This document shows positions 1 through 12,454 of a DNA stretch of 13,689 bases, in pieces (position 1 is the stretch's first letter; the number at the start of each line of letters is the position of its first letter). The stretch spans positions 1 through 13,689 of the forward strand of contig CAKZPJ010000173.1 in NCBI GenBank assembly GCA_937138955.1, written 5' to 3'. The position numbers were made by a program, and so were the translations under genes. The notes beneath the pieces are model-generated. The model did no database searches, was not told the DNA's origin, and saw only the letters and a program-made list of their open reading frames with translations. Origin of the DNA: an uncultured Flammeovirgaceae bacterium. GTDB lineage: Bacteria; Bacteroidota; Bacteroidia; Cytophagales; Cyclobacteriaceae.

Positions 1-1262
1 AGCATCTCTACAATATTGAGCACGTAGGAGATAAATTTTACGTCCGCACTGACTGGGATTCTCCCAATTATCGAATTATGGAAGCTCCCCTCGGCAGTGT
101 CAATAAAGTGCAGTGGAAAGAAGTGATTCCGCATCGTGAAGAGGTGTTTTTGGAAGATATGGAAGTCTTCAGTCGCTACTTAGTCTTAACTGAAAAATCA
201 AACGCGCTACCTAAGCTGCGGGTAATGGATACTGAGGCTAAAAAAGAACACTATATCCAGTTTGACGAGCCCGCCTATATGCTTTCTTCAGCCACTAATC
301 CCGAGCTAGATTCTGAAATATTGCGCTACGGATATTCTTCGCTAACCACGCCTACTTCTATTTACGACTATAATATGCAAACTCGGGAGCAGGAGCTGAA
401 AAAACGTCAAAAAGTGGTTGGTGGACACAATCCGAGTGAGTACGTTACTGAGCGGTTGTTTGCTCCAGCACACGACGGAAAGCAAATTCCTATTTCATTA
501 GTATATAAGAAAGGTGCTCAAGAGAAAGAATCAGTTCCACTACTGTTGTACGCTTACGGTTCTTACGGTAACTCTATAGACCCTTACTTTAGCAGCACTC
601 GATTGAGCTTGCTAGATCGAGGGTTTATCTTTGCGATTGCTCATATCCGAGGTGGACAGGAAATGGGTCGCGCGTGGTACGAAGATGGCAAAATGTTTAA
701 TAAGAAAAATACTTTTACTGACTACATCGATTGTGCTAATTTTTTGATTTCAGAAAACTACACTGATTCTACTCAGCTCTACGGAATGGGGGGCAGTGCT
801 GGCGGTTTACTGATGGGTGCCGTAGCCAATATGGCTTCTGATCGCTTCAATGGGCTTATTGCCGCGGTGCCATTTGTAGATGTGGTTTCTACCATGCTCG
901 ATGAATCTATTCCGCTAACGACTAATGAGTTTGATGAGTGGGGTAATCCTAAAAACTTAGAGTCCTATCAGTATATGTTATCTTACTCACCTTACGACAA
1001 TGTAGCCGAGCAAGACTATCCCAACTTGCTAGTCACCACCGGCTTGTTTGACTCTCAAGTGCAATACTGGGAACCAGCTAAGTGGGTAGCCAAACTACGG
1101 GATAAGAAAACGGATGATAACGTGCTCCTATTAGAAACTAATATGGAGGCCGGGCACGGTGGGGCTTCGGGTCGCTTCCAGCGTTACAAAGAAACGGCAC
1201 TGGAGTATGCTTTTCTACTGAAGTTAGAAGGGAAAGAAAAGTTAGCCCCTGATAGGAATTAG
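1..1262 (+). CDS. ptrB: Oligopeptidase B (S9A serine peptidase), 5' end missing
   Basis: This is the C-terminal part of a prolyl-oligopeptidase-family peptidase that cleaves short peptides after basic residues, normally about 680-700 residues long. The reading frame is open from base 3, so the true start lies left of the window; the ATG at 78 is internal. The visible part covers the end of the beta-propeller and the whole alpha/beta-hydrolase domain. The nucleophile Ser is in GMGGSAGG (codon 795-797), the Asp in TGLFDSQVQYWEPAKW (codon 1050-1052) and the His in EAGHGG (codon 1155-1157). The block VPFVDVVSTMLDESIPLTT is nearly identical to what I recall of E. coli PtrB. Its stop codon overlaps the stop of the convergent glycosyltransferase gene. 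It has no evident link to the sunscreen genes. Confidence 0.93.
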   Translation, partial: HLYNIEHVGDKFYVRTDWDSPNYRIMEAPLGSVNKVQWKEVIPHREEVFLEDMEVFSRYLVLTEKSNALPKLRVMDTEAKKEHYIQFDEPAYMLSSATNPELDSEILRYGYSSLTTPTSIYDYNMQTREQELKKRQKVVGGHNPSEYVTERLFAPAHDGKQIPISLVYKKGAQEKESVPLLLYAYGSYGNSIDPYFSSTRLSLLDRGFIFAIAHIRGGQEMGRAWYEDGKMFNKKNTFTDYIDCANFLISENYTDSTQLYGMGGSAGGLLMGAVANMASDRFNGLIAAVPFVDVVSTMLDESIPLTTNEFDEWGNPKNLESYQYMLSYSPYDNVAEQDYPNLLVTTGLFDSQVQYWEPAKWVAKLRDKKTDDNVLLLETNMEAGHGGASGRFQRYKETALEYAFLLKLEGKEKLAPDRN

Positions 1263-2278
1263 ATCACTTTCGCAGTAGTAATCTTAGCTGGTGTCCAGCG
1301 GGAGCGCAGCTCTTCGATATGCATATTTTCTCGCCCTTTCTGCAAATGACGGGAACTGCTCTCGAATGATAGGGAAGAAGGAAGGGGTATGTCGGCGTAA
1401 ACTTCTTCTACAAAATCAATTACTTGACGATAGGAAGGATAAAATGAGCCATCATCTGCATCTAACAAATACTTTTTACGGAATGCGGCGGAGAATAATC
1501 CGGTACCGTCATCGAAGAATCGTTCGGTAGTTCGACCGTATTTATGATAAGGATAGTAATGTAAATCCTGGGAAGCATGATGAGCAGTCCACGAAGCATA
1601 AGACCAAAACTCGCTAAACGTGCCAAACTCATTCGCCGAATGCATCATTATTTTGGTCCAGTGGTCGGTAGACTTGTAGTAATCTTGTAATCGCTGTTGA
1701 AACGAACGCAAATGTTCCTTTTTGAACCACAGATGGTGGGGAACGAAAGTCCCTTCCTCATCTATCAAAGGCTCAACACCTAACACTTTCTTAATCCACG
1801 TAGCCCATTTGTCTACAATAATATTGTTACCGTACTGATTGTGCTGGAGCAGTGCAAACCAATAGCTTATTTCGCTATTTCGCTCTTGAACAATCGGCCA
1901 ACTATTTACGGGTAATAAATCAGCATCCCATACCAAATACCATTCGCTGAGTGATTGAATGCCTTCGGCTGCCCCTAACTTTAGTAGCTGCTGATAAAAC
2001 CAGCCGGGTTGGTACAGTGATTTTTCTAATTGCAGTTCTGCACAGATTTGCACCTTGCTCAGACCCGCTAATTGAAAAAAAGATTCTTCTGGATGAGTGG
2101 TTAATTGGGGAACATCCCAATCGGTAGCCAATTCAGAAAGGTGCTGAGCTTGCTCTTGGGGAGCAATAACATGAATCTTACGGGGCTGGTACTTCGCCGA
2201 AACGCCCTCTAATACGGCCCGAGTGTTCCAATGTACTTTGAAAAGCGGTAAAACAAAATCATAGGTCGGTGCCGACAT
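1259..2278 (-). CDS. DUF6492-like putative glycosyltransferase
   Basis: A 339-residue soluble protein resembling the DUF6492 group of GT-A-like glycosyltransferases. Supporting features are a DxD-type motif (WDADLLPV, D118 and D120) that would bind a metal and nucleotide sugar, PGWFYQQLLKL just before it (91-101), and an acidic/aromatic stretch around 217-230 (NEFGTFSEFWSYASW). No signal peptide or membrane segment is visible. The donor and acceptor are unknown. The gene follows the cyclase gene on the same strand, but a strong terminator lies between them, and its ATG is only about 22 nt past that terminator's U-tract. It therefore needs its own promoter or read-through. Because hexose-linked MAAs are known in Nostoc, a role in glycosylating the sunscreen is conceivable, but this is inference from position only. 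The last codon overlaps the convergent ptrB stop. Confidence 0.72.
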   Translation of the reverse strand: MSAPTYDFVLPLFKVHWNTRAVLEGVSAKYQPRKIHVIAPQEQAQHLSELATDWDVPQLTTHPEESFFQLAGLSKVQICAELQLEKSLYQPGWFYQQLLKLGAAEGIQSLSEWYLVWDADLLPVNSWPIVQERNSEISYWFALLQHNQYGNNIIVDKWATWIKKVLGVEPLIDEEGTFVPHHLWFKKEHLRSFQQRLQDYYKSTDHWTKIMMHSANEFGTFSEFWSYASWTAHHASQDLHYYPYHKYGRTTERFFDDGTGLFSAAFRKKYLLDADDGSFYPSYRQVIDFVEEVYADIPLPSSLSFESSSRHLQKGRENMHIEELRSRWTPAKITTAKVI

Positions 2279-2299
2279 AGCATTGCGGAAGGTTACAGG

Positions 2300-2346
2300 A
2301 AAAAAAGAGGGCTACAATTTCTATCAGAATAGAAATGTAGACCCTC
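2300..2346 (-). terminator. Rho-independent terminator of the cyclase gene
   Basis: Read on the minus strand, a long hairpin with GAGGG/CCCTC at its base (2307-2311 with 2342-2346) and an ATAGAAAT-type upper stem, with about two bulged bases, starts 6 nt after the cyclase stop codon. It is followed directly by seven Ts (2300-2306). This is a canonical intrinsic terminator and should separate the cyclase transcript from the glycosyltransferase gene. Confidence 0.85.
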
Positions 2347-2352
2347 GGCAAA

Positions 2353-4113
2353 TTACATAATAGTTTCTGTTTCCTCCAGCGTATTTTGGTCAATCTCTGA
2401 CCCGGAATAAACCGTAGAGGGATCTTCAAGCCCTACATCGCTACATAGTGGTTCAACTCCTCTGCCTTCCCGAGGAAAACGCTGGCATAATTCGCGGTAC
2501 TCACCGATGGCTTGCTGCAATTCTTCGCGCGTTAGCTTGTTCAGATAGCCGCACTGACCAACATCTCCTTTAGGTAGAGGTGCCACCAAATTACCACCTC
2601 GTTTTTCAATCATCTTCTCCTGAGCTGCCCACAGCGTTTCTTCGTCTAGCAGAATATTGTGCCATAGACTTAGCTCAAATGTACTGATGAGCGTAAGAAT
2701 ACGCTGAAGAGCTGCTTCATCAATCCATTCGTTGCGGTAGCTCAGATAAGCTCCCCAGCCCATACCAATAGCTACAGCGTGTCCGTGCAGCAAACCCGCT
2801 TTAATCTCAAAGCCTGGCGACCAAGTGTGACCGTAGGCGTGAGGGCGACACTGATGCGTTTCGTACAAATTATCGTACTCGGCCTCCACGTAACTACGCA
2901 TAGCTGCTCCCAGTATCTTTTGTGATAGATCGTTGATCTCATCGTCTTTATCGCAGTTCACAGTTCCGAATGAAGTGTCTAGCAAGCGCGTATTGGCCTG
3001 TTCCAGATAGCCAAACAGTTTAGCATCTTTCACTACGGCCATCTTGATAATTTCCGCAACTCCGTGTCGTAACCAGCCCTTGTGCAAGGTAGAAAAGAAT
3101 GAACGATCCGTAACGGACAAAACTGGGGCGTGATACGCGCCAAATAAGTTTTTATAGCCAAAGCCATCGCAGCAGGTTCGGGGCGAAGGACCCGCATCAA
3201 TACCCGCTACAATGGAGGTAGATAACATGATATAAGGAGTATTACGATGGTATAGCGCGCAGGCTAATCCACCAGTATCGGAAATCACTCCACCGCCAAC
3301 AATCAGTACCGGTTCATTGCGCGACACACCTACTCGCTTAAAATCACCCAGCATCTGCTCTACGGTATTGATGCCCTTATCAACTTCCATAGCTCGGTAT
3401 ACTAGCTTTTTAAACGCGATATTATAGTGAGCAAAGTAATTCGTCAACTGCTCACCGTAGTAGTGTTCTACATTTTTATCTACCAAGCATACGCAGCGTC
3501 CCTTAGGTAAAAATTTATCTCGTAGTAATGTATTGCTTAGATCCAAAGCATTCTCAGTAATACGAATAGAAGTAAACGTTGAGCAACTCATAACCGCTTC
3601 TACGGCTTGATCGTCTTCGGTGCTAACAGTGTAGCCTTTGCTTTCCCGGTAATTTGATGTGGGATAAATTGCGTGAGGGTTCTCCTCAACTAATCGTTCG
3701 GCCAACTCAGTATAAAACTCCGACTCGCCGCAGGTTCGCAAACGGTCTAGTAGTTTGGTGTCTGCTTCACGGGAAGCGTAAACACCCTCTGAGAGCTGCT
3801 TCCACGCTTCGCCTTTGGTCTGATCAAATGCTAAGGCTACTTCAGCCAGTAGAGCAAAAAACTCCTTAGTTTTTAAGTTAAGTGAACTGCGAAGCTTACG
3901 GCAAGCCGAAACTCCTTCAATTGCTCCCACAGAAATAAATTCGTCGCCTAGCTCTTTAGAGAAAACAGAGGTTTGAGTAAAGTCTATTAGTAAACTCTTA
4001 AACAAATCCTGGCAAAATAAATCCTCTAATTCCACTTCAGTAGCGGAAATAATAAACTGGTTAGGGTCAACTTCGCGGATAAATCCATGGATAGATTCAG
4101 TAATCTGACTCAT
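2353..4113 (-). CDS. mysA: Sedoheptulose 7-phosphate cyclase in the MysA position (DDGS or EVS type), N-terminally extended
   Basis: A 586-residue member of the 3-dehydroquinate synthase superfamily that should cyclise sedoheptulose 7-phosphate to the MAA core. NAD site: GGGVISD (273-279). Expected zinc ligands: E354 (VAEIIK), H429 (YGHTWSP) and H443 (LLHGHAV). YGHTWSP, with Ala two residues before GHT, resembles cyanobacterial desmethyl-4-deoxygadusol synthase. However, the phosphate/substrate loop reads GIDAGPSPRTCCDGFGYKN (304-322), with Arg312 where DHQ synthase and cyanobacterial MysA have Lys. From memory this loop matches 2-epi-valiolone synthase-like cyclases better. About 165 N-terminal residues precede the cyclase domain and match no domain I know; cyanobacterial MysA is about 410 residues. 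The longest reading frame begins at a TTG (4116), immediately followed by ATG at 4113, which I prefer. It is divergent from mysBCD. The MAA pathway role is confident from context; the exact product is not. Confidence 0.88.
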   Translation of the reverse strand: MSQITESIHGFIREVDPNQFIISATEVELEDLFCQDLFKSLLIDFTQTSVFSKELGDEFISVGAIEGVSACRKLRSSLNLKTKEFFALLAEVALAFDQTKGEAWKQLSEGVYASREADTKLLDRLRTCGESEFYTELAERLVEENPHAIYPTSNYRESKGYTVSTEDDQAVEAVMSCSTFTSIRITENALDLSNTLLRDKFLPKGRCVCLVDKNVEHYYGEQLTNYFAHYNIAFKKLVYRAMEVDKGINTVEQMLGDFKRVGVSRNEPVLIVGGGVISDTGGLACALYHRNTPYIMLSTSIVAGIDAGPSPRTCCDGFGYKNLFGAYHAPVLSVTDRSFFSTLHKGWLRHGVAEIIKMAVVKDAKLFGYLEQANTRLLDTSFGTVNCDKDDEINDLSQKILGAAMRSYVEAEYDNLYETHQCRPHAYGHTWSPGFEIKAGLLHGHAVAIGMGWGAYLSYRNEWIDEAALQRILTLISTFELSLWHNILLDEETLWAAQEKMIEKRGGNLVAPLPKGDVGQCGYLNKLTREELQQAIGEYRELCQRFPREGRGVEPLCSDVGLEDPSTVYSGSEIDQNTLEETETIM

Positions 4114-4361
4114 CAAGTAAAATTTAATAAGGTAAAAAGAGAATTATTAACTGGTAGTGAATCACAGAAAAGTAACGAAGCTGAAAAAATATTTGTTCAA
4201 CTTATAACCATATAATATTACACAAAATATACCCTATTTTATGAGCATAAATAACTAATGTAAAGATGGTGAAAACGATGAATATGAGTAAGTAAATATC
4301 TTGTTGTAAATATAGAAGTGCTGATGCCGTTGCTTTCCGGATTAGGCAAGCCAGTCAACTG

Positions 4362-4391
4362 AAACCTTTACTATTCTGTATAGTTAGGTTT
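4362..4391 (+). promoter_or_regulatory. First leader hairpin upstream of mysB
   Basis: Inverted repeat AAACCT-TT-ACTAT / ATAGT-T-AGGTTT with a 5-nt loop (6 bp, a small internal loop, then 5 bp). It ends 2-3 nt before the terminator-like hairpin. The side-by-side layout suits a leader that switches between folds, although I found no clear alternative pairing between the two hairpins. Confidence 0.45.
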
Positions 4392-4393
4392 AC

Positions 4394-4437
4394 AAAAAAG
4401 CAAGCTCAATTTCGGTAACGAGCAAGCTGTTTTTTTT
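4394..4437 (+). terminator. Terminator-like hairpin in the mysB leader (possible attenuator)
   Basis: AGC-AA-GCTC (4399-4407) pairs with GAGC-AA-GCT (4420-4428) across an AA/AA internal loop. The stem is preceded by an A-run and followed by G and at least seven Ts (4431-4437), so it could act on either strand. It ends about 31 nt before the mysB start. No gene lies upstream on the plus strand and little room is left for a promoter after it, so the simplest reading is a terminator inside the mysBCD leader, that is, attenuation. Confidence 0.55.
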
Positions 4438-4468
4438 ACATTCCTACCATCCATCAATTTTTTATCCG

Positions 4469-5335
4469 TTGGAAAATATAATAACAAACCAGCTACAACT
4501 CAGACCGGTAACACCCCAAGCGCACATTAGCTTTGAACTAGGTCAAGCTAGAGAATTACTCAATAATTCTGATTCTAACCTTGATCCAGCGTTGAAGGAG
4601 CAACTTTTATCTCACCTTAATAGAGCCTACAGTATTAGTGCTCAAATGGACGCTTATCTTTCGTCGGTTACTCAAGCACCTTCCGATTGCTTACGCTCAC
4701 TGGAACGGGCTACTATGTCGCTTCCGTGGCAGAACAGTGCCGAGCTAGATGGTGACTTAGAACCGGAAATGCTATCTGGACATTTGGAAGGGCAGTTTCT
4801 TCAACAATTAGTGCGAATGACTAAAGCTACTTCGGTGTTAGAGATTGGTCTCTTCACTGGTTACTCAGCATTGGCAATGGCCGAGGCTCTGCCCGCAAAC
4901 GGCACTTTAGTAGCCTGTGAATTAGACGATACTATTGCTGATTTTGCCGAAAGCTATCTGCATCGGTGCGTGGCTGGACAAAAAGTGGATATTCGCCGGG
5001 GAAAAGCCAGTGATTCATTAGAGCAACTGCGAGTAGAGGGCAAATCGTTTGACTTGGTATTTGTTGATGCTGATAAGTCGGGCTACCGTACCTACGTAGA
5101 AAGTCTGATTAGTCAACCCAATTCTTTATTAGCCGAACACGGACTAATCGTGGTGGATAACACGCTGTATCAGGGAGAGATTTATACGAAACCTTTAGAA
5201 GAGATGTCTGAGAATGCCCAGGCCATTTATCATTTCAATGAATATGTGCGTACGCATCCTGATCTAAAAGTGGTGCTACTGCCAATCCGTGATGGGGTTA
5301 TGTTTATCAGTCGGAAGCAAGAAGATAGTCTGTAA
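4469..5335 (+). CDS. mysB: MysB, SAM-dependent O-methyltransferase making 4-deoxygadusol
   Basis: A 288-residue class I methyltransferase of the caffeoyl-CoA-OMT-like fold that should O-methylate the cyclised core to 4-deoxygadusol. The N-terminal helical part begins with LRPVTPQ. EMLSGHLEGQ (100-109) is a hallmark shared with cyanobacterial MysB as I recall it. SAM motif I is VLEIGLFTGYSAL (123-135). VFVDADKSGY (197-206) and VVDNTL (228-233) are the metal/substrate motifs, and LLPIRDGVMFI closes the domain. The start is TTG: no in-frame ATG lies between the leader hairpin and the conserved N-terminus, and the family's N-terminal motif begins about 11 residues in. It is first of three tightly packed genes; mysC follows after 6 nt, so the two are probably translationally coupled. 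Confidence 0.93.
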   Translation: MENIITNQLQLRPVTPQAHISFELGQARELLNNSDSNLDPALKEQLLSHLNRAYSISAQMDAYLSSVTQAPSDCLRSLERATMSLPWQNSAELDGDLEPEMLSGHLEGQFLQQLVRMTKATSVLEIGLFTGYSALAMAEALPANGTLVACELDDTIADFAESYLHRCVAGQKVDIRRGKASDSLEQLRVEGKSFDLVFVDADKSGYRTYVESLISQPNSLLAEHGLIVVDNTLYQGEIYTKPLEEMSENAQAIYHFNEYVRTHPDLKVVLLPIRDGVMFISRKQEDSL

Positions 5336-5341
5336 TCTGGT

Positions 5342-6721
5342 ATGAGGCTTAAAACCCTTCGAGCGTTACTAATCATAGTTAGCACCCTTCCTTTCGCTTT
5401 AGTAGGGCTTTTAGTGGCTCAATTAATAAGTGGTAAACGTGTTTCTAAACATGCTCGGCGAGATCTGCTTTCCCGAGCATCGGTACTAATCACGGGGGGG
5501 CGCATGACGAAAGCCCTGCATCTAGCTCGTAGTTTTCGTGCTTTAGGGTGGCGAGTGGTACTGACCGATAGTGTAAAATACGAATATTGCGGCCCCCGAT
5601 TCTCTGGAGCGGTTGACACTTTTCGTATCCATCAGGATTTATCGAAAGTTGGGGAAATAGCCTACTTGAATAGTTTAAACCAAATCATAATTCAGGAAAA
5701 TATAGACTTGGTAGTGCCGGTATCATCTCCCAAATCGAGTTTACCCGATGCTAAATTACAGTCAATCGTTGATGCGGAAATCCAGAAGGGTACTAAGCAG
5801 AAAGCTACTGTGGTTTTTCACGGCACGCCGGAGCAAATAAGTACTGTAGATGATAAGTTTACTTTTTGCGAAAAAGCGAGCGAATTGGGGCTACCAGCAC
5901 CCAACGTTTTTCGTATAACCAGTTATGCTGAAGTGGAACAGTTTGCACTAGCGAATTACCCTGGTCAGCCATTTATTTTCAAAAGCATTAACTATAACCC
6001 CACCGCGCGGCTTGATAATAATGTGTTCGGTTCGGGGGATAAAGAAGAGTTGCTTGCTTACGCGCGTTCGGTAGAAATATCGAATAAAAAACCGTGGGTG
6101 CTACAAACCTATATTGAAGGACAAGAATATTGCACTCACGGTACGGCAGTCAACGGCAAACTCACCCTATTTTGTTGCTGCGAGTCATCAGCCTTCCAGG
6201 TGAATTACGCCCACGTACATAAACCAGCTATTGAGCAGTGGGTTACTACCTACGTAGCTAAAGCAGGACTCACTGGTCAGTATTCTTTTGATTTTATTGA
6301 AGATCGGCAGGGCAATATATTTCCGATAGAGTGCAACCCGAGAACCCATTCGGCGATTACTACTTTTTATAACACGACAAAACTGGCCGAAAGCTACTTA
6401 GCTAATGAAGATGTGCCGGAGCGAAATACGAGTGAAACATTCAATTCCATCGTGCCTGAACCTGAAGCTAAACCTACTTACTGGCTCGCCCACGAGTTAC
6501 ACCGAATTGCGGAACCCTTGCCGGGCGAAACCCCAATTCATGCTCTGAAAAGAATTTGGAACGGTAAAGAAGCGGTATACGAACCCTTCGATCCAAAACC
6601 CTTTTTTATGCTACACTACGTGCATATACCTTATTTGCTGCTGAATGCCCTTCTCCGAGGCAATAAGTGGAAGCGGATTGATTTCAACATCGGTAAGATA
6701 GTAGAAGTAGGAGGAGATTAA
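5342..6721 (+). CDS. mysC: MysC, ATP-grasp ligase making mycosporine-glycine
   Basis: A 459-residue ATP-grasp enzyme that activates 4-deoxygadusol and couples glycine, giving mycosporine-glycine. A hydrophobic N-terminal segment (about 7-29) may anchor it to the membrane. Then come VLITGGRMTKALHLARSF (48-65), PFIFKSINYNP in the ATP-grasp domain, and CTHGTAVNGKLTLFCCCESS (264-283). The catalytic FDFIE and IECNPRTHSAITTFY span 316-343. The C-terminus, WKRIDFNIGKIVEVGGD, is almost the same as in the cyanobacterial enzyme I recall. These motifs separate it from general carbamoyl-phosphate-synthase-like ATP-grasp proteins. It is the middle gene of mysBCD. The 52-nt gap to mysD contains short CAATGA repeats and no terminator that I can see. 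Confidence 0.94.
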   Translation: MRLKTLRALLIIVSTLPFALVGLLVAQLISGKRVSKHARRDLLSRASVLITGGRMTKALHLARSFRALGWRVVLTDSVKYEYCGPRFSGAVDTFRIHQDLSKVGEIAYLNSLNQIIIQENIDLVVPVSSPKSSLPDAKLQSIVDAEIQKGTKQKATVVFHGTPEQISTVDDKFTFCEKASELGLPAPNVFRITSYAEVEQFALANYPGQPFIFKSINYNPTARLDNNVFGSGDKEELLAYARSVEISNKKPWVLQTYIEGQEYCTHGTAVNGKLTLFCCCESSAFQVNYAHVHKPAIEQWVTTYVAKAGLTGQYSFDFIEDRQGNIFPIECNPRTHSAITTFYNTTKLAESYLANEDVPERNTSETFNSIVPEPEAKPTYWLAHELHRIAEPLPGETPIHALKRIWNGKEAVYEPFDPKPFFMLHYVHIPYLLLNALLRGNKWKRIDFNIGKIVEVGGD

Positions 6722-6773
6722 AACAATGAACAATGTCCGGGACGAATGTGCAATGAATAATAACTAGCGACAA

Positions 6774-7853
6774 ATGATAAATGACGATTATCCTTATCTC
6801 ATTCACTTTATTGGCTCGCCTAGTAGTTGGTACGAGTTTCGGTTGTCGTTAATTTACGCAACGCAGGCAATTGATTTTCCTGAGTACCAAGAGCAGTGCC
6901 TATTAGTTTTTCCGGATGAGCAGTGGCTGTTGCTGGATAAAAAGTATTTAAAAGATTTCAGCCAGCAAGTACTAATTAAGAATCAGAAACCAGAGGGACT
7001 CACCTATTGCAGTGAAGAAGCTGCTTTGCGTAATCTTCCCGAAGCATTCACATTGATTTCTCATGTGTTTTGTCAAAAGGGTATGATCGAGTATCGGGCT
7101 ATTTTTGAAGCAATGCCCAAAGTACGATTAGTCGGTAGCAGTTCTAAAGTGATCCGGCTGACCCAATCTAAATTAGCAACCAAACAGGCAGTGGTCGAAG
7201 CCGATTTGCCGGTTCCGGATAGTTTGATAATTGAAAGCGAGAAAAAGCTTCAGGCTTCATTATTGAGAATCCCCCAGTTAGGTAAGAAGGTCATCGTTAA
7301 ACCGGACGATACCGATAATTCTAAAGGACTCTCGTTAATTCACGACACTAGTGATACCAAAGTATTGACGAAGGCTATTGAAAAAGCTTTGAAGTACTCT
7401 ACTACGGCTTTGGTAGAAACGTATATCCCTGGTAGAGAGATAAGAACCTGCGTGGTAGAAACCAACCAAAGGTTTACCGTACCGGCTATGATTGAATACC
7501 ATGTATCTGAGCAGCACCCGATTCGAGAAGAGGCGGATAAGCTTCGTTTAGATACTAAGGGAATGCCACTGTCTCAGAGTGCCTATAAAAACATAACAGC
7601 TAGCTGCCCGGCTAACTTAGGTGAGAAACTTCGAGAAAAATTGCACACCTATTCCATCCAAGCGCATCAGGCATTAGACTGTAAACAGTTCTCCATTTTT
7701 GACTTTCGAGTTTCGGATCAAACGCAAGAAGCCTACTTACTGGAGGCTGGGTTATACTGGAGCTTTAGTCCGCAGAGTATGATCTCCAAGATGTTGACCG
7801 CCTCAGATATAGATTTTGCCAAGCTCTCGCGACAGGTAGTTGATGAAGCTTGA
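6774..7853 (+). CDS. mysD: MysD, D-Ala-D-Ala ligase-like ATP-grasp making disubstituted MAAs
   Basis: A 359-residue ATP-grasp ligase that should condense mycosporine-glycine with a second amino acid (Ser, Thr, Gly or others) to form an iminomycosporine such as shinorine or porphyra-334. Visible motifs: VIVKPDDTDNSKGLSL (173-188) of the ATP-binding region, VETYIPGREIRTCVV (214-228), QALDCKQFSIFDFRV (299-313) and LEAGLYWSFSPQSMIS (323-338). The last follows the MysD signature closely and sets it apart from housekeeping Ddl. The amino-acid preference cannot be read from sequence. It is the last gene of mysBCD, and its stop is 29 nt from the convergent mysH stop with no recognisable terminator between. 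No NRPS-type MysE is present in the window, so this is the only second-step ligase. Confidence 0.92.
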   Translation: MINDDYPYLIHFIGSPSSWYEFRLSLIYATQAIDFPEYQEQCLLVFPDEQWLLLDKKYLKDFSQQVLIKNQKPEGLTYCSEEAALRNLPEAFTLISHVFCQKGMIEYRAIFEAMPKVRLVGSSSKVIRLTQSKLATKQAVVEADLPVPDSLIIESEKKLQASLLRIPQLGKKVIVKPDDTDNSKGLSLIHDTSDTKVLTKAIEKALKYSTTALVETYIPGREIRTCVVETNQRFTVPAMIEYHVSEQHPIREEADKLRLDTKGMPLSQSAYKNITASCPANLGEKLREKLHTYSIQAHQALDCKQFSIFDFRVSDQTQEAYLLEAGLYWSFSPQSMISKMLTASDIDFAKLSRQVVDEA

Positions 7854-7882
7854 TGAATAGTACTTCTCTATCAGTCATAAAA

Positions 7883-8653
7883 TCAAATAACCATACCTCG
7901 GTAGAATACTCGGTCGCCCACTACGGCGGAATGGTCAGCGCAGTGGAGTGTACAGCGGTTATCCCAAATCACAATATCGCCCGGTTGCCAGCGATGCCGA
8001 TAGATACGTTTGTCTTCCGTAGCATAGTCGTATAGCTGTTTGATTACCTCATTGCCCAGTGAAGTTTGGCGGATGGCTACACAACGTTCCGGCGTCGATA
8101 GGTAAATAGTCTTTTTGCCACTGATAGGGTGGGTCAGAAAAAGCGGATGCCAGGTCTGGGTTTCACTAAGCTGATTCTCCGCTTGATTAATACCCGTAAC
8201 TTGATGTAGCACTTCAGCGTTTGCTAATTCTTCCTTCATCTTATCTTCTAAATCATTGTAGGCTTGGTACTGGTTGGTGAATAGTGTTTCACCGCCAGAA
8301 GTGGGGCACTCAATAATCTTGAGCGAGGTGAAAGACGGAGGATTTGTTACGTAACTGGTATCGGTATGGAACACACTCCGGGGTAGCGTTTTTCTACCTT
8401 TATTTGATACCACATTAAGCCTGGGTTCATTAAGGACATGTTTCTCTCCTTCCGTGAAGGTAAGCCTCCCTAATCGAGCCAGGAAATTCGCAAAGTCAGT
8501 ATCATTTAGCGCTTGGTTATGGAAAACTACTACCCCATAGTCAGCTAATGCTGCCTTTATATCACTGGTTTGTTGATCAGTGACTTCGCTCAGTGATTTT
8601 CCGCTGGTTTCTTCCTGAACGAAGTCAGACCCATCTACTAAATCAAAAAGCAT
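7883..8653 (-). CDS. mysH: MysH-like Fe(II)/2-oxoglutarate-dependent dioxygenase (TauD family)
   Basis: A 256-residue TauD/TfdA-type oxygenase. The iron triad is H96 and D98 (FHTDTSY) plus H237 (NRCTLHCAD). R252 near the C-terminus, 15 residues after the last His, should bind 2-oxoglutarate, the same spacing as in TauD. MysH enzymes convert disubstituted MAAs such as shinorine or porphyra-334 into palythine-type MAAs by oxidative removal of part of the amino-acid side group. That role is assigned here by family plus position beside mysD; the TauD fold alone would allow many substrates. The ATG lies 2 nt after the stop of the HAD-like gene, so the two are almost certainly co-transcribed and translationally coupled. 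The shadow frame opposite its 3' end is not a gene. Confidence 0.8.
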   Translation of the reverse strand: MLFDLVDGSDFVQEETSGKSLSEVTDQQTSDIKAALADYGVVVFHNQALNDTDFANFLARLGRLTFTEGEKHVLNEPRLNVVSNKGRKTLPRSVFHTDTSYVTNPPSFTSLKIIECPTSGGETLFTNQYQAYNDLEDKMKEELANAEVLHQVTGINQAENQLSETQTWHPLFLTHPISGKKTIYLSTPERCVAIRQTSLGNEVIKQLYDYATEDKRIYRHRWQPGDIVIWDNRCTLHCADHSAVVGDRVFYRGMVI

Positions 8654-8655
8654 TT

Positions 8656-9318
8656 TTATGACTCCTTTTGTTTCAACTGATTGAAATCAAGCGAAGAGAG
8701 TTTGTCTTCTGCGCCCTCGAAGTCATGGTCTTGGGTATTATCCCCACCAAAGGCGTAACTATCAATACCCGCCGATTGAGCAGCGGTAAGACCATCCTGA
8801 TTATCCTCAATGGCGATAGCATCATTTGCCTTAATGCTTAACTTTTCTAGGGCTAATTGATAAGCGTCGGACTCTGGTTTTTTAGCATTCACCTGACTGC
8901 TATCAATGATTGCATCAAAGTCCTCCGCCGAAACTTCGGGCGAAAGTGCTTGAATCAAATTATCAATGTTTTCGCGACTGGTAGTGGTTACCAATCCTAC
9001 CTTTGCCCCTTCCTTCTTAGCTTGCTGAATGGTCTCGGCAACACCTAGTCTCGGTTGAATGGATTTCCGCTGTAGTAGCTCCTGGAAAATCCTTGACTTA
9101 TTGGCGTGGATAGCTTCAGCATCTACCGTTTCGCCTTGGCTTTGAGCAAAACGGTCAATTCGCTGCTTACCTCCACTGTCTTTCAGTAATTCTTGATACT
9201 GCTCGCGAGGCCAATTCCAATCTAAGCCAGCTTCGGAAAAGGCTCGGTTGAATGCTTCGCGTTGTAATTCTGAGGTCTCGGCTAGGGTGCCAATAGATCC
9301 AAAAAGTAGTGCTTTCAT
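8656..9318 (-). CDS. HAD-fold (CbbY/phosphoglucomutase-like) protein lacking the catalytic Asp pair
   Basis: A 220-residue HAD subfamily I protein with a helical cap. Motif II (GLVTTTS, about 108-114), motif III (NAKKPESDAY, K146/K147) and motif IV (AIEDNQDGL, E171-D172) are all present. Motif I, normally FDxDGTL, reads FGSIGTL here: nucleophile Asp7 is Gly and Asp9 is Ile. I checked these codons on the DNA; they are intact and the frame is uninterrupted. Classical phosphatase, mutase or dehalogenase chemistry should therefore be lost, while the rest of the fold looks maintained. It is the first gene of a two-gene operon with mysH, 2 nt apart, which implies a role in the same step: a folding or docking partner, ligand sensor, or unrecognised chemistry. 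Function unknown. It is divergent from the broken fic gene. Confidence 0.85.
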   Translation of the reverse strand: MKALLFGSIGTLAETSELQREAFNRAFSEAGLDWNWPREQYQELLKDSGGKQRIDRFAQSQGETVDAEAIHANKSRIFQELLQRKSIQPRLGVAETIQQAKKEGAKVGLVTTTSRENIDNLIQALSPEVSAEDFDAIIDSSQVNAKKPESDAYQLALEKLSIKANDAIAIEDNQDGLTAAQSAGIDSYAFGGDNTQDHDFEGAEDKLSSLDFNQLKQKES

Positions 9319-9497
9319 AGTTATTGTATGTAAAATACCAGATTAACCAAATTACTACTCGGATGTTCGCTTTACCTAACTGTTTTCAGCAATTATAGTG
9401 ATGTATACTTATTAAGATTTCATCAATGTTTTGGTAAGTAGGTAATTATTAATTTTCGTACCATGTGTCCTATTACATTAATATGCTTTTAGTAGGA

Positions 9498-9549
9498 TGA
9501 GCTAAATTGTATTCTTTTATAGCTCACTTTTATCCTTTATAATGAGCTA
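9498..9549. promoter_or_regulatory. Three phased TGAGCTA boxes upstream of fic (possible operator)
   Basis: TGAGCTA occurs at 9498-9504 and 9543-9549, and its exact complement TAGCTCA at 9520-9526. Starts are 22 and 23 bp apart, about two helical turns each. The third box ends 20 bp before the fic ATG. The first two also form a 7-bp perfect hairpin stem. The spacing suggests binding sites for a dimeric regulator, possibly the winged-helix end of Fic itself; no regulator is proven. Confidence 0.4.
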
Positions 9550-9569
9550 CAAATTAGAATATTTAGTAT

Positions 9570-10695
9570 ATGGCTTGGAACTGGAAACACAAAGATTGGC
9601 CAAATTTCGCTCATGATACTCAACGTCTGATGGGTTATGAGAAAAGTTTTTTACATAAAGCTGGCATACTTGCTGGTAGCCTAAAACATATCAGGTCTGA
9701 GGAAGCGGACATTCTCAAAGTTGATTTAATTAGCAATGAAGCCTACAAAACCTCAGCGATAGAAGGTGAGATACTTGATCGAGATTCTTTGCAATCTTCT
9801 ATTAAAAAAAATACTTTGGATTAAAAGCTGACTATCCCGAATACCTCCGTCTGAACAAGGAATATCAGAAATGATGATTGATTTGTATAAAAACTACCCT
9901 ACAGCTTTAGATCACGCTCAACTTTACGCTTGGCACGAAATGCTAACCAACGGTCGGCGAGATTTACTGGATGTAGGCAAATATCGTACTCATCAAGAGC
10001 CAATGCAGATTGTCTCAGGAGCATTAGACTGCTCTAAAATTCACTACGAAGCCCCTCCATCATCTACTACAAAACACGAGATGCAGCAATTCATCCGATG
10101 GTTCAACCAGAGCGGTAAAACAAGTGGTGGTCAGTTTGAACCGATAACTCGCTCGGGTATTACTCACCTTTACTTTGAAAGTATCCATCCTTTTGAAGAT
10201 GGCAACGGGCAAATAGGGCGGGCGCTATCTGAGAAGGTGTTATCGCAAGGATTAAACCAACTAATACTTATCGCTCTTTCCCATACAATAGAAAGTCATA
10301 AAAAGAAGTGTTACGCTGCTCTTCAGCGGAACAGCACTCATCTAGAGATTACAGACTGGTTAGAATATTTCGCTCAAATGGTACTGAAAGCACAAGATTA
10401 CACACAGAGTATGATCGATTTTCTAATTGAAAAAGGTAAGTTCTATCAACGTTTTGACTCTCTGATTAATGAGCGGCAGCGGAAGGTTATTGCGCGTATT
10501 TTCAGAGCGGGCGTAAACAGATTTAGAGGAGGGTTAGGTGCAGATAATTACAGAAGTATCACAAATACTACCGCATCCACCGCTACAAGGGGTTTACAGA
10601 AACTTGTAAAGCTAGAAGCGTTTATTAAAAAGGGGGAAAGAAAGGGTACTCGCTACTACCTAAACATCAACCACTCGATTGTGCAAAATATCTAA
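9570..10695 (+). pseudogene. Fic-family AMPylase (DUF4172-Fic-winged helix), split by two frameshifts
   Basis: Two adjacent frames form one Fic protein. The first (9570-9824) is the DUF4172 N-terminus (WNWKHKDWP) with the inhibitory helix TSAIEG, matching (S/T)xxxE(G/N). The second (from 9871) holds the Fic core HPFEDGNGQIGR (10186-10221) and a C-terminal winged-helix-like region. The linker GLKADYPEYLRLNKE sits in the third frame between them. One extra A in the A8 run at 9804-9811 and one extra A at about 9859-9862 would restore a continuous reading frame. Both losses are in A-runs, so they may be real inactivation, slippage at the A8 tract, or assembly errors. The core motif has Gln in place of the usual Arg in GNGR. 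Intact Fic proteins of this type AMPylate target proteins; the target is unknown here. Confidence 0.85.
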
Positions 10696-10700
10696 TGTTA

Positions 10701-10726
10701 AAAGGCTATGAGGCTCATATAGTCTT
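10701..10726. terminator. Weak hairpin between the convergent fic and rlmN genes
   Basis: TATGA-GGC-TCATA (10707-10719) forms a short hairpin flanked by AAAG on the left and CTTT on the right. It lies in the 42-nt gap between two convergent genes, where a shared terminator is expected. The stem is short and interrupted, with no real U-tract. Confidence 0.3.
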
Positions 10727-10737
10727 TGGCGACAGCT

Positions 10738-11790
10738 TTACTCCTGCTTAATTGCCAGTTGACCGCAGGCAGCGTCAATATCTTTACCTCTACTGCGGCG
10801 CACGTTTACCGTTACCCCTTTATTTTCTAAGTAGCGAGCGAATTGGTTAAGGCGGTCTTCTTCGGTATTCTTGAAATCAGCTTCGGAGATGGGGTTATAC
10901 TCAATTAGGTTTACTTTGCTAGGAACGTATTTGGTGAATTGCCATAGTTCTTTAGCATCTTCTAGCGTATCGTTGAAGTCGTAAAAAACAATGTACTCAA
11001 ACGTAATGCGGGTGTGGGTTTTCTGGTAGAAATACTGTAAGGCTTCACGAAGTACCTCTAGCGAATTAGTCTCATTAATAGCCATAATTCGGTCACGCTT
11101 CTCATCATTCGCCGCGTGCAGCGATAGTGCCAGATTGAATTTGACCTGATCGTCGCCTAGCTTTTTAATCATCTTGGCAATGCCCGCGGTAGAAACAGTG
11201 ATCCGTTTGGGTGACATATTTAACCCTTGAGGAGAAGTAATGTGCTCGATAGATTGTAGCACATTAGCGTAGTTCAGCAGCGGTTCGCCCATGCCCATGT
11301 ACACAATATTGGAGAGTGGCATTTGATAGTTTTGCTCCGCTTGCTGATTAATTAATACCACTTGATCGTATATTTCAGCCGCATCGAGATTGCGCTTACG
11401 ATCCATGTAGCCGGTGGCACAGAACTTGCAAGCCAGCGAACAACCCACTTGAGATGATACGCAAGCCGTCATTCGTGATTTAGAAGGAATCAGTACTCCC
11501 TCAACTAAATGGCTATCATGCAGTCGGAACATCGACTTGATTGTCCGATCGCGGCTTACCTGTTGGTCGTCTACTTGTAGCGCATTGATCGTAAAATTAT
11601 TCTCTAGTAGCTCTCGCGTCTTCTTCGATAGGTTGGTCATTTCAGCGAAGCTGGTCGCTGATTTTTTCCACAGCCATTCTTCGATCTGCTTCACCCGGAA
11701 CGGCTTTTCACCCGCTTCCATGAAGAACTCCAAGAGCTGGGTTGGCTTAATTTTTCGAATGTCGGGCTTGGTTGCGATTGTAGACTCCAT
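10738..11790 (-). CDS. rlmN: 23S rRNA (A2503-C2)/tRNA (A37-C2) methyltransferase, radical SAM
   Basis: RlmN methylates C2 of A2503 in 23S rRNA and of A37 in some tRNAs, supporting translational accuracy. The radical-SAM cluster is C117xxxC121xxC124 (CSLACKFC). GMGEPLLN is the SAM-binding GGE-like motif. C342 (DAACGQLA) is the methyl-carrying cysteine. The N-terminal helical domain IKPTQLLEFFMEAGEKPFRVKQIEEWLW is typical. I start it at the ATG at 11790, giving 350 residues, the usual size. The frame stays open to 11946, but the extra 52 residues are low-complexity, unlike the family, and would overlap the upstream acetyltransferase gene. Cfr resistance enzymes are related, but the N-terminal domain and housekeeping context favour RlmN. 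Confidence 0.96.
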   Translation of the reverse strand: MESTIATKPDIRKIKPTQLLEFFMEAGEKPFRVKQIEEWLWKKSATSFAEMTNLSKKTRELLENNFTINALQVDDQQVSRDRTIKSMFRLHDSHLVEGVLIPSKSRMTACVSSQVGCSLACKFCATGYMDRKRNLDAAEIYDQVVLINQQAEQNYQMPLSNIVYMGMGEPLLNYANVLQSIEHITSPQGLNMSPKRITVSTAGIAKMIKKLGDDQVKFNLALSLHAANDEKRDRIMAINETNSLEVLREALQYFYQKTHTRITFEYIVFYDFNDTLEDAKELWQFTKYVPSKVNLIEYNPISEADFKNTEEDRLNQFARYLENKGVTVNVRRSRGKDIDAACGQLAIKQE

Positions 11791-11878
11791 ACGATAATAA
11801 CAGCGATTGCATTCATCCAACAACGAAAGTGTAACAGAAAGTTTATAGGCTACAATAAATTGTCTGTAGGTCTTAAGT

Positions 11879-12454
11879 TTACGATGTTTTTCGGAGCATA
11901 TATAGGGAAAACCCAAAGTCAAGTTGATCATACACCTGAAAACCAAATTTTTCGTACCACGGTAAATTTTGTAAAGTGGAGGTTTCCAGATAAATGGGTC
12001 GTTGTAGTGATTGACAATGCTCTATCAGTTCAGTGAGCAATGCACTACCGATTCCCTGACCTTGGCTTTTTTCTGCTACTCCCAAAAACCATAGGTGGCA
12101 GAAAGGAGTAGCAGGATGCTTACTCCGAATACGAGCCTCGCGATCTAGCACTTTTGGAACTTTAGTTAATCCAGTAGCTAAAGTAGCTAATTGTATATCC
12201 CATAATATTGACCTGAAGGTAATACGCTTCTGGTCAGGAAATAGCATTAGTGCGTAACCCTTACGGTCGTCTGATTGCCAAACTTCTCCGAATTCAAGGC
12301 AGATATTTAGCGCGTACTGAATCAGAAAATGGATACGTTTCACTCTCTTTGAATCTTGTTTGATAGCGTAATTCACACTTTTATTGTCAGTAAAAGCTTC
12401 AGCAAGCACGTCTAGCAACTGAGAATTATTCGGCTGAGTGATTATCGGAATCAT
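11879..12454 (-). CDS. GNAT-family N-acetyltransferase
   Basis: A 191-residue acyl-CoA-dependent N-acetyltransferase. The CoA pyrophosphate loop is in LGVAEKSQGQGIGSALL (Q131-GQG134-I-G136, the Q/RxxGxG/A motif). ETSTLQNLPWYEKFGF (157-172) is the usual final strand-helix with the tyrosine and KFGF signature of small-molecule GNATs. The substrate cannot be inferred. The gene starts 18 nt after the stop of the MscS-type gene on the same strand, so the two are probably one operon. An 88-nt gap separates it from rlmN. Confidence 0.88.
   Translation of the reverse strand: MIPIITQPNNSQLLDVLAEAFTDNKSVNYAIKQDSKRVKRIHFLIQYALNICLEFGEVWQSDDRKGYALMLFPDQKRITFRSILWDIQLATLATGLTKVPKVLDREARIRSKHPATPFCHLWFLGVAEKSQGQGIGSALLTELIEHCQSLQRPIYLETSTLQNLPWYEKFGFQVYDQLDFGFSLYMLRKTS

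Follow-up and report, generated by a model that had tools for sequence, protein, structure and literature searches.

A candidate chimeric island for mycosporine-like amino acid biosynthesis in the Bacteroidota genus Tunicatimonas

In actinobacteria, gene clusters for mycosporine-like amino acids (MAAs) combine mysA, mysB, mysC and mysD with genes for a TauD-type dioxygenase and a HAD protein without its nucleophile; all six stand together in 5 of the 5 loci that we compared (Williamsia, L002-L005; Nocardioides, L006). That HAD and TauD are conserved in these clusters is already known from the GATOR-GC preprint (PMC11888242), whose available text also reports them from Pseudomonadota and Bacillota, and not from cyanobacteria, describes further actinobacterial clusters with HAD and TauD in Pseudonocardia alni and Rhodococcus fascians, and refers to unpublished work in which the R. 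fascians operon was expressed and gave shinorine, palythine and palythine-serine. Six phyla are named there for MAA windows, Bacteroidota not among them, and we found no reported MAA cluster from Bacteroidota in the open-access literature, including the available text of PMC7472256, PMC5133447 and PMC11888242, which bears out a preliminary description of the present DNA that knew of no characterised one. Here we describe a 9.5-kb island (about positions 1263-10737), flanked by a prolyl oligopeptidase gene and by rlmN, on contig 173 (CAKZPJ010000173.1, 13,689 nucleotides, analysed whole and called the window) of an uncultured member of the genus Tunicatimonas (assembly GCA_937138955.1; G000). 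The island holds mysB, mysC, mysD, tauD and HAD genes beside genes for a long sedoheptulose-7-phosphate cyclase and a DUF6492 protein, and offers, as far as the literature searched shows, a first candidate for an MAA locus from Bacteroidota. Our preferred reading, held with somewhat more confidence than doubt, is that the island is chimeric, joining a cyclase and a predicted sugar transferase, both of cyanobacterial type, to a mysBCD-TauD-HAD module in part of Tunicatimonas.

The genes of the window run in the order prolyl oligopeptidase (3' part), DUF6492 (-), cyclase (-), mysB-mysC-mysD (+), tauD (-), HAD (-), a split Fic gene and rlmN. The preliminary description had located six of these correctly (cyclase, O-methyltransferase, ATP-grasp protein, D-Ala-D-Ala-ligase-like protein, dioxygenase and HAD) and had also seen that the cyclase diverges from mysBCD while the HAD-oxygenase genes converge on it; the island extends further than it had supposed, from about 1263 so as to include DUF6492, and the HAD lacks its nucleophile. 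In the actinobacterial loci, by contrast, all genes run in the same direction, starting with HAD and ending with tauD (in L006, tauD stands between mysB and mysC), and the two are not neighbours, whereas HAD adjoins tauD in the window. The actinobacterial loci also have a canonical MysA (408 aa in L002) and no DUF6492 match, where the window has the long cyclase and DUF6492. Gaps of 74 bp between cyclase and DUF6492, of 6 and 52 bp between mysB and mysC and between mysC and mysD, and of 2 bp between HAD and tauD suggest three transcription units, cyclase-DUF6492, mysB-mysC-mysD and HAD-tauD.

By homology, MysB, MysC and MysD are MAA-type proteins, as the preliminary description had proposed. 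The mysB-like O-methyltransferase (4469..5335, +; PF01596, 159 bits) is of the MysB type, being 44-47% identical to its counterparts in all five actinobacterial loci and 43% to mysB of the Nostoc sp. HK-01 plasmid cluster (L062). The mysC-like ATP-grasp ligase that follows it (5342..6721, +; PRK06849, 344.5 bits) is 42-43% identical to actinobacterial MysC and 39% to that of Nostoc HK-01, and is likewise of the MysC type. The third gene encodes a mysD-like ligase (6774..7853, +; PF07478) that is 29-31% identical to mysD of the five actinobacterial loci and Nostoc HK-01 (30% to the latter; E 4e-28 to 5e-41), while its match to the best solved Ddl in the PDB is weaker (E 4e-8, from a database of different size); a Ddl-like ligase of the MysD/MysE kind is thus present. 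Nostoc HK-01 differs in having a co-linear mysABC, with a 409-aa MysA that is 37% identical to the window cyclase, and a PhyH-type dioxygenase in place of TauD.

The origin of this module was approached through MysC, whose phylogeny the preliminary description had put forward as a check, and the outcome was divided. A midpoint-rooted tree of 49 rows (42 of the 120 listed matches plus 7) groups the five Tunicatimonas-type rows together (100/100), with a stem length of 1.61, and sets them apart from the MysC of actinobacteria and cyanobacteria alike, yet these two are the nearest relatives found: among the best 120 matches, those named outside Tunicatimonas are actinobacterial, cyanobacterial or unassigned soil-metagenome proteins. 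MysC thus points to neither possible donor group as the source of the mysBCD module. Wholesale copying of an actinobacterial operon was considered and rejected, both for this position of MysC and for the cyanobacterial character of the cyclase and DUF6492.

The oxygenase (7883..8653, -) is an Fe/2OG dioxygenase of the TauD type (PF02668, 167 bits), and the "mysH-like" label of the preliminary description had to be given up: only the TauD family was matched, and not PhyH (PF05721), the family of the dioxygenase between mysC and mysD in Nostoc HK-01 and of the enzyme called MysH in PMC10510106. The window enzyme is 43-45% identical to the TauD of all five actinobacterial MAA loci, its HTD and distal-His regions align with PlaO1, and the HxD motif is intact in 7/7 MAA TauDs compared. 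By description only, it also resembles MysI of Nostoc sp. UHCC 0926, a TauD/TfdA-family enzyme for which the available text of PMC10510106 proposes palythine release through side-chain hydroxylation, by a mechanism said there to need experimental validation; MysI sits with mysF and mysE, and no HAD is named in that text.

Two base pairs upstream of tauD lies the gene for a CbbY-type HAD pseudo-phosphatase (8656..9318, -). Its best PDB match, over nearly its full length, is the phosphatase CbbY (4uar/4uat, 146 bits), whose substrate is xylulose 1,5-bisphosphate, and it is 48-49% identical to the HAD of all five actinobacterial loci, which likewise have TauD and HAD beside mysBCD. Both motif-I aspartates of CbbY are lost in the island protein: FDxDG is replaced by FGSIGT in the window and in the congener G002, and by FGSIST in 5/5 actinobacterial loci, so the DxD nucleophile is absent. 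HADs of this kind have recently been proposed to contribute to MAA production; having lost the nucleophile, this one is unlikely to work as a normal HAD phosphatase and is probably a non-catalytic partner or sensor. The available text of PMC11888242 says nothing of this motif loss, and its main text has no mention of "active site", "nucleophile", "catalytic" or "CbbY". The weaker HAD matches in relatives keep FDxDG in 17/17 readable cases, with 1 of 18 unreadable, and three of four plasmid HAD relatives (of 130 matching records) keep FDVDG. The fourth, on plasmid pROLI81 of Roseobacter litoralis (L080), has FGSIGT and neighbours potassium-uptake genes of the trkA/trkH type rather than any MAA genes, and the pseudo-CbbY family is therefore wider than MAA clusters.

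The long cyclase (586 aa; 2353..4113, -; the listed open reading frame starts with TTG at 4116) has as its best solved relatives PDB 5tpr (251 bits; titled 3-dehydroquinate synthase), which we take to be the Anabaena desmethyl-4-deoxygadusol synthase (DDGS), and 4p53 (174 bits; titled Cyclase), presumably ValA, a 2-epi-5-epi-valiolone synthase (EEVS). A search of 5.8 billion proteins, which scored the 7,994 candidates with the most words in common and listed 120, returned six Tunicatimonas-type proteins as nearest matches, the window's own among them, followed by cyclases of about 576-615 aa that are 64-68% identical over 94-100% of the window cyclase; wherever these latter are named among the 120, they are cyanobacterial. 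In a tree of 31 cyclases the 13 long rows (12 of the 120 and the window; the short relative rel_L052 was dropped) group together (100/100) and have canonical DDGS as their sister (100/99), and the EEVS-like and EboD-like rows, several of which drew a program warning for long branches, fall outside the long/DDGS group. These three labels are our own, assigned with the help of the surrounding gene clusters, where the plasmid records say only "sedoheptulose 7-phosphate cyclase". The locus is therefore not complete as a mysABCD cluster in the sense of the preliminary description: its first enzyme is no orthologue of DDGS (MysA), lying outside it in a different, uncharacterised sister clade. A clade marked "DDGS?", of uncertain activity, appears in the available text of PMC5133447, and our guess is that the long cyclases correspond to it.

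At 16 columns that separate 6 DDGS from 4 EEVS-like rows, the long clade (8 rows compared) has the DDGS letter at five, including W432 and H446, which together with the sister position supports a route through desmethyl-4-deoxygadusol. At the GAYH(A/P) position the 120 listed proteins comprise 59 with Ala, 58 with Pro, one with Thr and two unmatched, and with the clade so divided, function cannot safely be read from this letter. Three DHQS-type (3-dehydroquinate synthase-type) proteins were found in G000, namely the island cyclase, an EboD-like protein and one at C653 taken as AroB; G002 likewise gave three cyclase-type matches, and neither genome yielded a candidate for a canonical DDGS. Since no other candidate appeared and the sister group makes desmethyl-4-deoxygadusol, the long cyclase is the most likely source of this compound, and we judge that it probably does supply it. 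Its N-terminal 167 residues (3613..4113, -), absent from the 409-aa MysA of Nostoc HK-01, are predicted to form helices (pLDDT 86.3); no PDB entry matched this fold, which is no proof that the fold is new. The plasmid collection held no long cyclase, its best match being the 37% identical Nostoc HK-01 protein, and viral contigs scanned with two long cyclases gave no matches.

Downstream of the cyclase, the DUF6492 gene (1259..2278, -) encodes a predicted GT-A-fold sugar or sugar-phosphate transferase, with a GT-A-like predicted fold and an Asp-x-Asp motif as in GT-A glycosyltransferases and stealth phosphotransferases. It is 56-63% identical to its relatives over nearly the full length. A pair of long cyclase and DUF6492 with these identities occurs in cyanobacteria (Xenococcus, Leptolyngbya, Pleurocapsales and others), as indicated by a comparison of longest-contig sizes among the 120 listed matches for each protein (119 for MysC, where P0018 was left out, its longest contig equalling that of P0012). 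The cyclase and DUF6492 lists have 15 exact sizes in common, 13 of them outside the Tunicatimonas-type proteins and including contigs of 5,075 and 6,026 bp, against a mean of 0.48 and a maximum of 3 in 1000 jittered nulls; unlike the window, these 13 have no MysC among the matches listed. A metagenome-assembled genome named Bacteroidota bacterium also carries both proteins (P0126/P0247, on a 196,580-bp contig), and none of the 120 listed MysC matches is on a contig of that size, so this genome may hold the pair without the MAA module. We found no paper naming DUF6492 in the literature searched.

To the left of the island lies the 3' part of the prolyl oligopeptidase gene (3..1262, +; Pfam Peptidase_S9) and to its right rlmN (10738..11946, -; TIGR00048, 392 bits), which was found in 10/10 genomes searched. 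In the two congeners without MysC, G001 and G003, the flanking genes are convergent and directly adjoining, with 19 and 36 bp between the ends of their tblastn matches, and the site is thus empty in 2/2 congeners without the island; the island, DUF6492 included, is therefore a clean acquisition, or was lost in the congeners, between these two genes. A third congener, G002, placed in the same genus as the window genome, carries the whole island at the same site with the same flanks on a contig of 7,171,967 bases, which confirms the Cytophagales-like Bacteroidota host that had been suggested. Identities between G002 and the window are 79% for DUF6492, 92% for the cyclase, 80% for MysB, 75% for MysC, 75% for MysD, 79% for TauD, 79% for HAD and 92% for RlmN; prolyl oligopeptidase is 91% identical to the window copy in G002, 89% in G003 and 82% in G001.

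Of 390 family genomes, only G000 and G002 carry MysC (at E<=1e-20), and the same two alone carry DUF6492; with the site empty in both congeners, this is not chance. At E<=0.001, MysC matched in seven of 98 relatives, with a close match besides G000 only in G002 (75%) and the remaining five at <=57.6 bits; in a phylum sample of 395 genomes, where G002 is not among the matches listed, the 12 matches are G000 and 11 others at <=27.3 bits. Close relatives of TauD and HAD (79%) were found among the 98 genomes only in G002, besides G000, with weaker homologues of TauD in 4 others and of HAD in 18 others; TauD thus matched in 6/98, exceeding 61 bits in G000 and G002 only.

If these assignments hold, the long cyclase would convert sedoheptulose 7-phosphate to desmethyl-4-deoxygadusol, which MysB would O-methylate to 4-deoxygadusol; MysC would then add glycine to give mycosporine-glycine, from which MysD would make an imino-MAA by attaching a second amino acid, these three steps following from homology. 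By analogy with actinobacterial clusters and with the proposals for MysH and MysI, TauD may hydroxylate the side chain next to the ring nitrogen, which would then fall off to leave a palythine-type MAA, with the nucleophile-less HAD probably either assisting TauD without catalysing a reaction itself or sensing a bound ligand. The product may be glycosylated by DUF6492, whose gene is probably transcribed together with that of the cyclase. A palythine-type MAA, perhaps glycosylated and begun by a new type of enzyme, would be our best reading of the product. A more tentative extension, which we consider rather doubtful as a whole, is that the long cyclases represent another type of desmethyl-4-deoxygadusol synthase, independent of the known one and equipped with a new regulatory domain, found widely in cyanobacteria beside a GT-A sugar transferase, and that the fusion of this pair with an MAA module in Tunicatimonas yields glycosylated palythine, with the dead CbbY as an obligate partner of TauD.

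Several observations weigh against the chimeric MAA reading. The cyclase is just 34-37% identical to the known MysA compared; of the 16 discriminating columns, its clade shares the EEVS letter in 4 and partly in one more, and in 6 it matches neither group, while at 21 columns where DDGS and EEVS-like rows agree it differs from both, including Arg313 for Lys and Asp317 for Asn. The window MysC, at 344.5 bits, does not reach the PRK06849 cut-off of 406, as Nostoc (560) and Nocardioides (426) do, although the Williamsia protein (403.5) also falls under it. G000 is 94% complete, so a second cyclase there could be missed. Lastly, relatives of the cyclase share contigs with DUF6492 and, outside the Tunicatimonas group, none with MysC, a point that is weak given that the MysC list is mostly actinobacterial. 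The main rival, which we think unlikely though not negligibly so, builds on these shared contigs (13 outside the Tunicatimonas type against a null mean of 0.48) and on the Bacteroidota genome with both proteins and no listed MysC match on a contig of equal size: the island would hold two modules, the cyclase and DUF6492 making a cyclitol glycoside of their own, as they may in marine cyanobacteria, and MysBCD-TauD using a ring from elsewhere. The MAA module would then have no dedicated cyclase, none having been found elsewhere in G000 or G002, and the two modules would still share one insertion, MysC and DUF6492 being in the same 2 of 390 genomes; the contig match, moreover, is indirect and silent on other neighbours.

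Somewhat less probable again is that the whole island makes a new, non-canonical conjugate of a cyclitol and an amino acid, the MysBCD homologues acting on a different ring and the product having no MAA chromophore. The mixed active-site region of the cyclase, the long separate branch of MysC (stem 1.61) and the identity of only 29-31% between MysD and known MysD would fit such a product, but for MysB, MysC, TauD and HAD the identity to proteins of MAA clusters is still 39-49%, and the available text of PMC11888242 reports HAD and TauD together in such clusters. An assembly artefact or contaminating contig might be suspected from the fragmented assembly of the window (5.6 Mb, 879 contigs, 2.14% contamination), yet the same island with the same flanks stands on the 7.17-Mb contig of G002, and the flanks occur without it in G001 and G003; contamination is very unlikely because G002 carries the same island, and we give an artefact of either kind hardly any weight.

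Under the chimeric reading, a defined seven-gene island, a natural empty-site control and an isolated host species would together offer a genetic handle on an uncharacterised clade of cyclases, and DUF6492 would become a possible MAA- or cyclitol-modifying sugar transferase. We infer that the host species, represented by G002, is Tunicatimonas pelagia. According to the available text of PMC6054067, T. pelagia was isolated from a sea anemone, and Tunicatimonas is a core genus of marine Lichina lichens, which are littoral and make MAAs.

Gene order is kept in G002 except for four extra genes there and for Fic, which is in the window only. The extra genes (L028, 11392-14743), between mysD and tauD where the window has a gap of only 29 bp, encode an Xre-type antitoxin and RES-domain pair, a beta-lactamase-family protein and an AraC-type regulator. 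DUF4172 and Fic domains are usually one protein, and in the window they lie in different frames 46 bp apart (9570-9824, + and 9871-10695, +), which suggests a broken Fic gene; L028 gave no Fic match. Three short two-copy repeat families were found, none at the borders of the island. The divergent intergenic region between cyclase and mysB (4114..4468, 355 bp) aligns with L028, which has extra sequence there, and in the window it has no exact match to a Bacteroidetes promoter pattern, an uninformative result with 0.55 expected. From one Tunicatimonas island to the other the cyclase keeps 92% identity and its island neighbours 75-80%; it evolves more slowly, like the flanking genes. In G001 and G003 an EboD-like cyclase gene is found some 8 kb away from rlmN, and in G002 one stands upstream of prolyl oligopeptidase (L075, L076, L077; G000:C285), and the insertion site of the island's cyclase is thus close to another cyclase gene.

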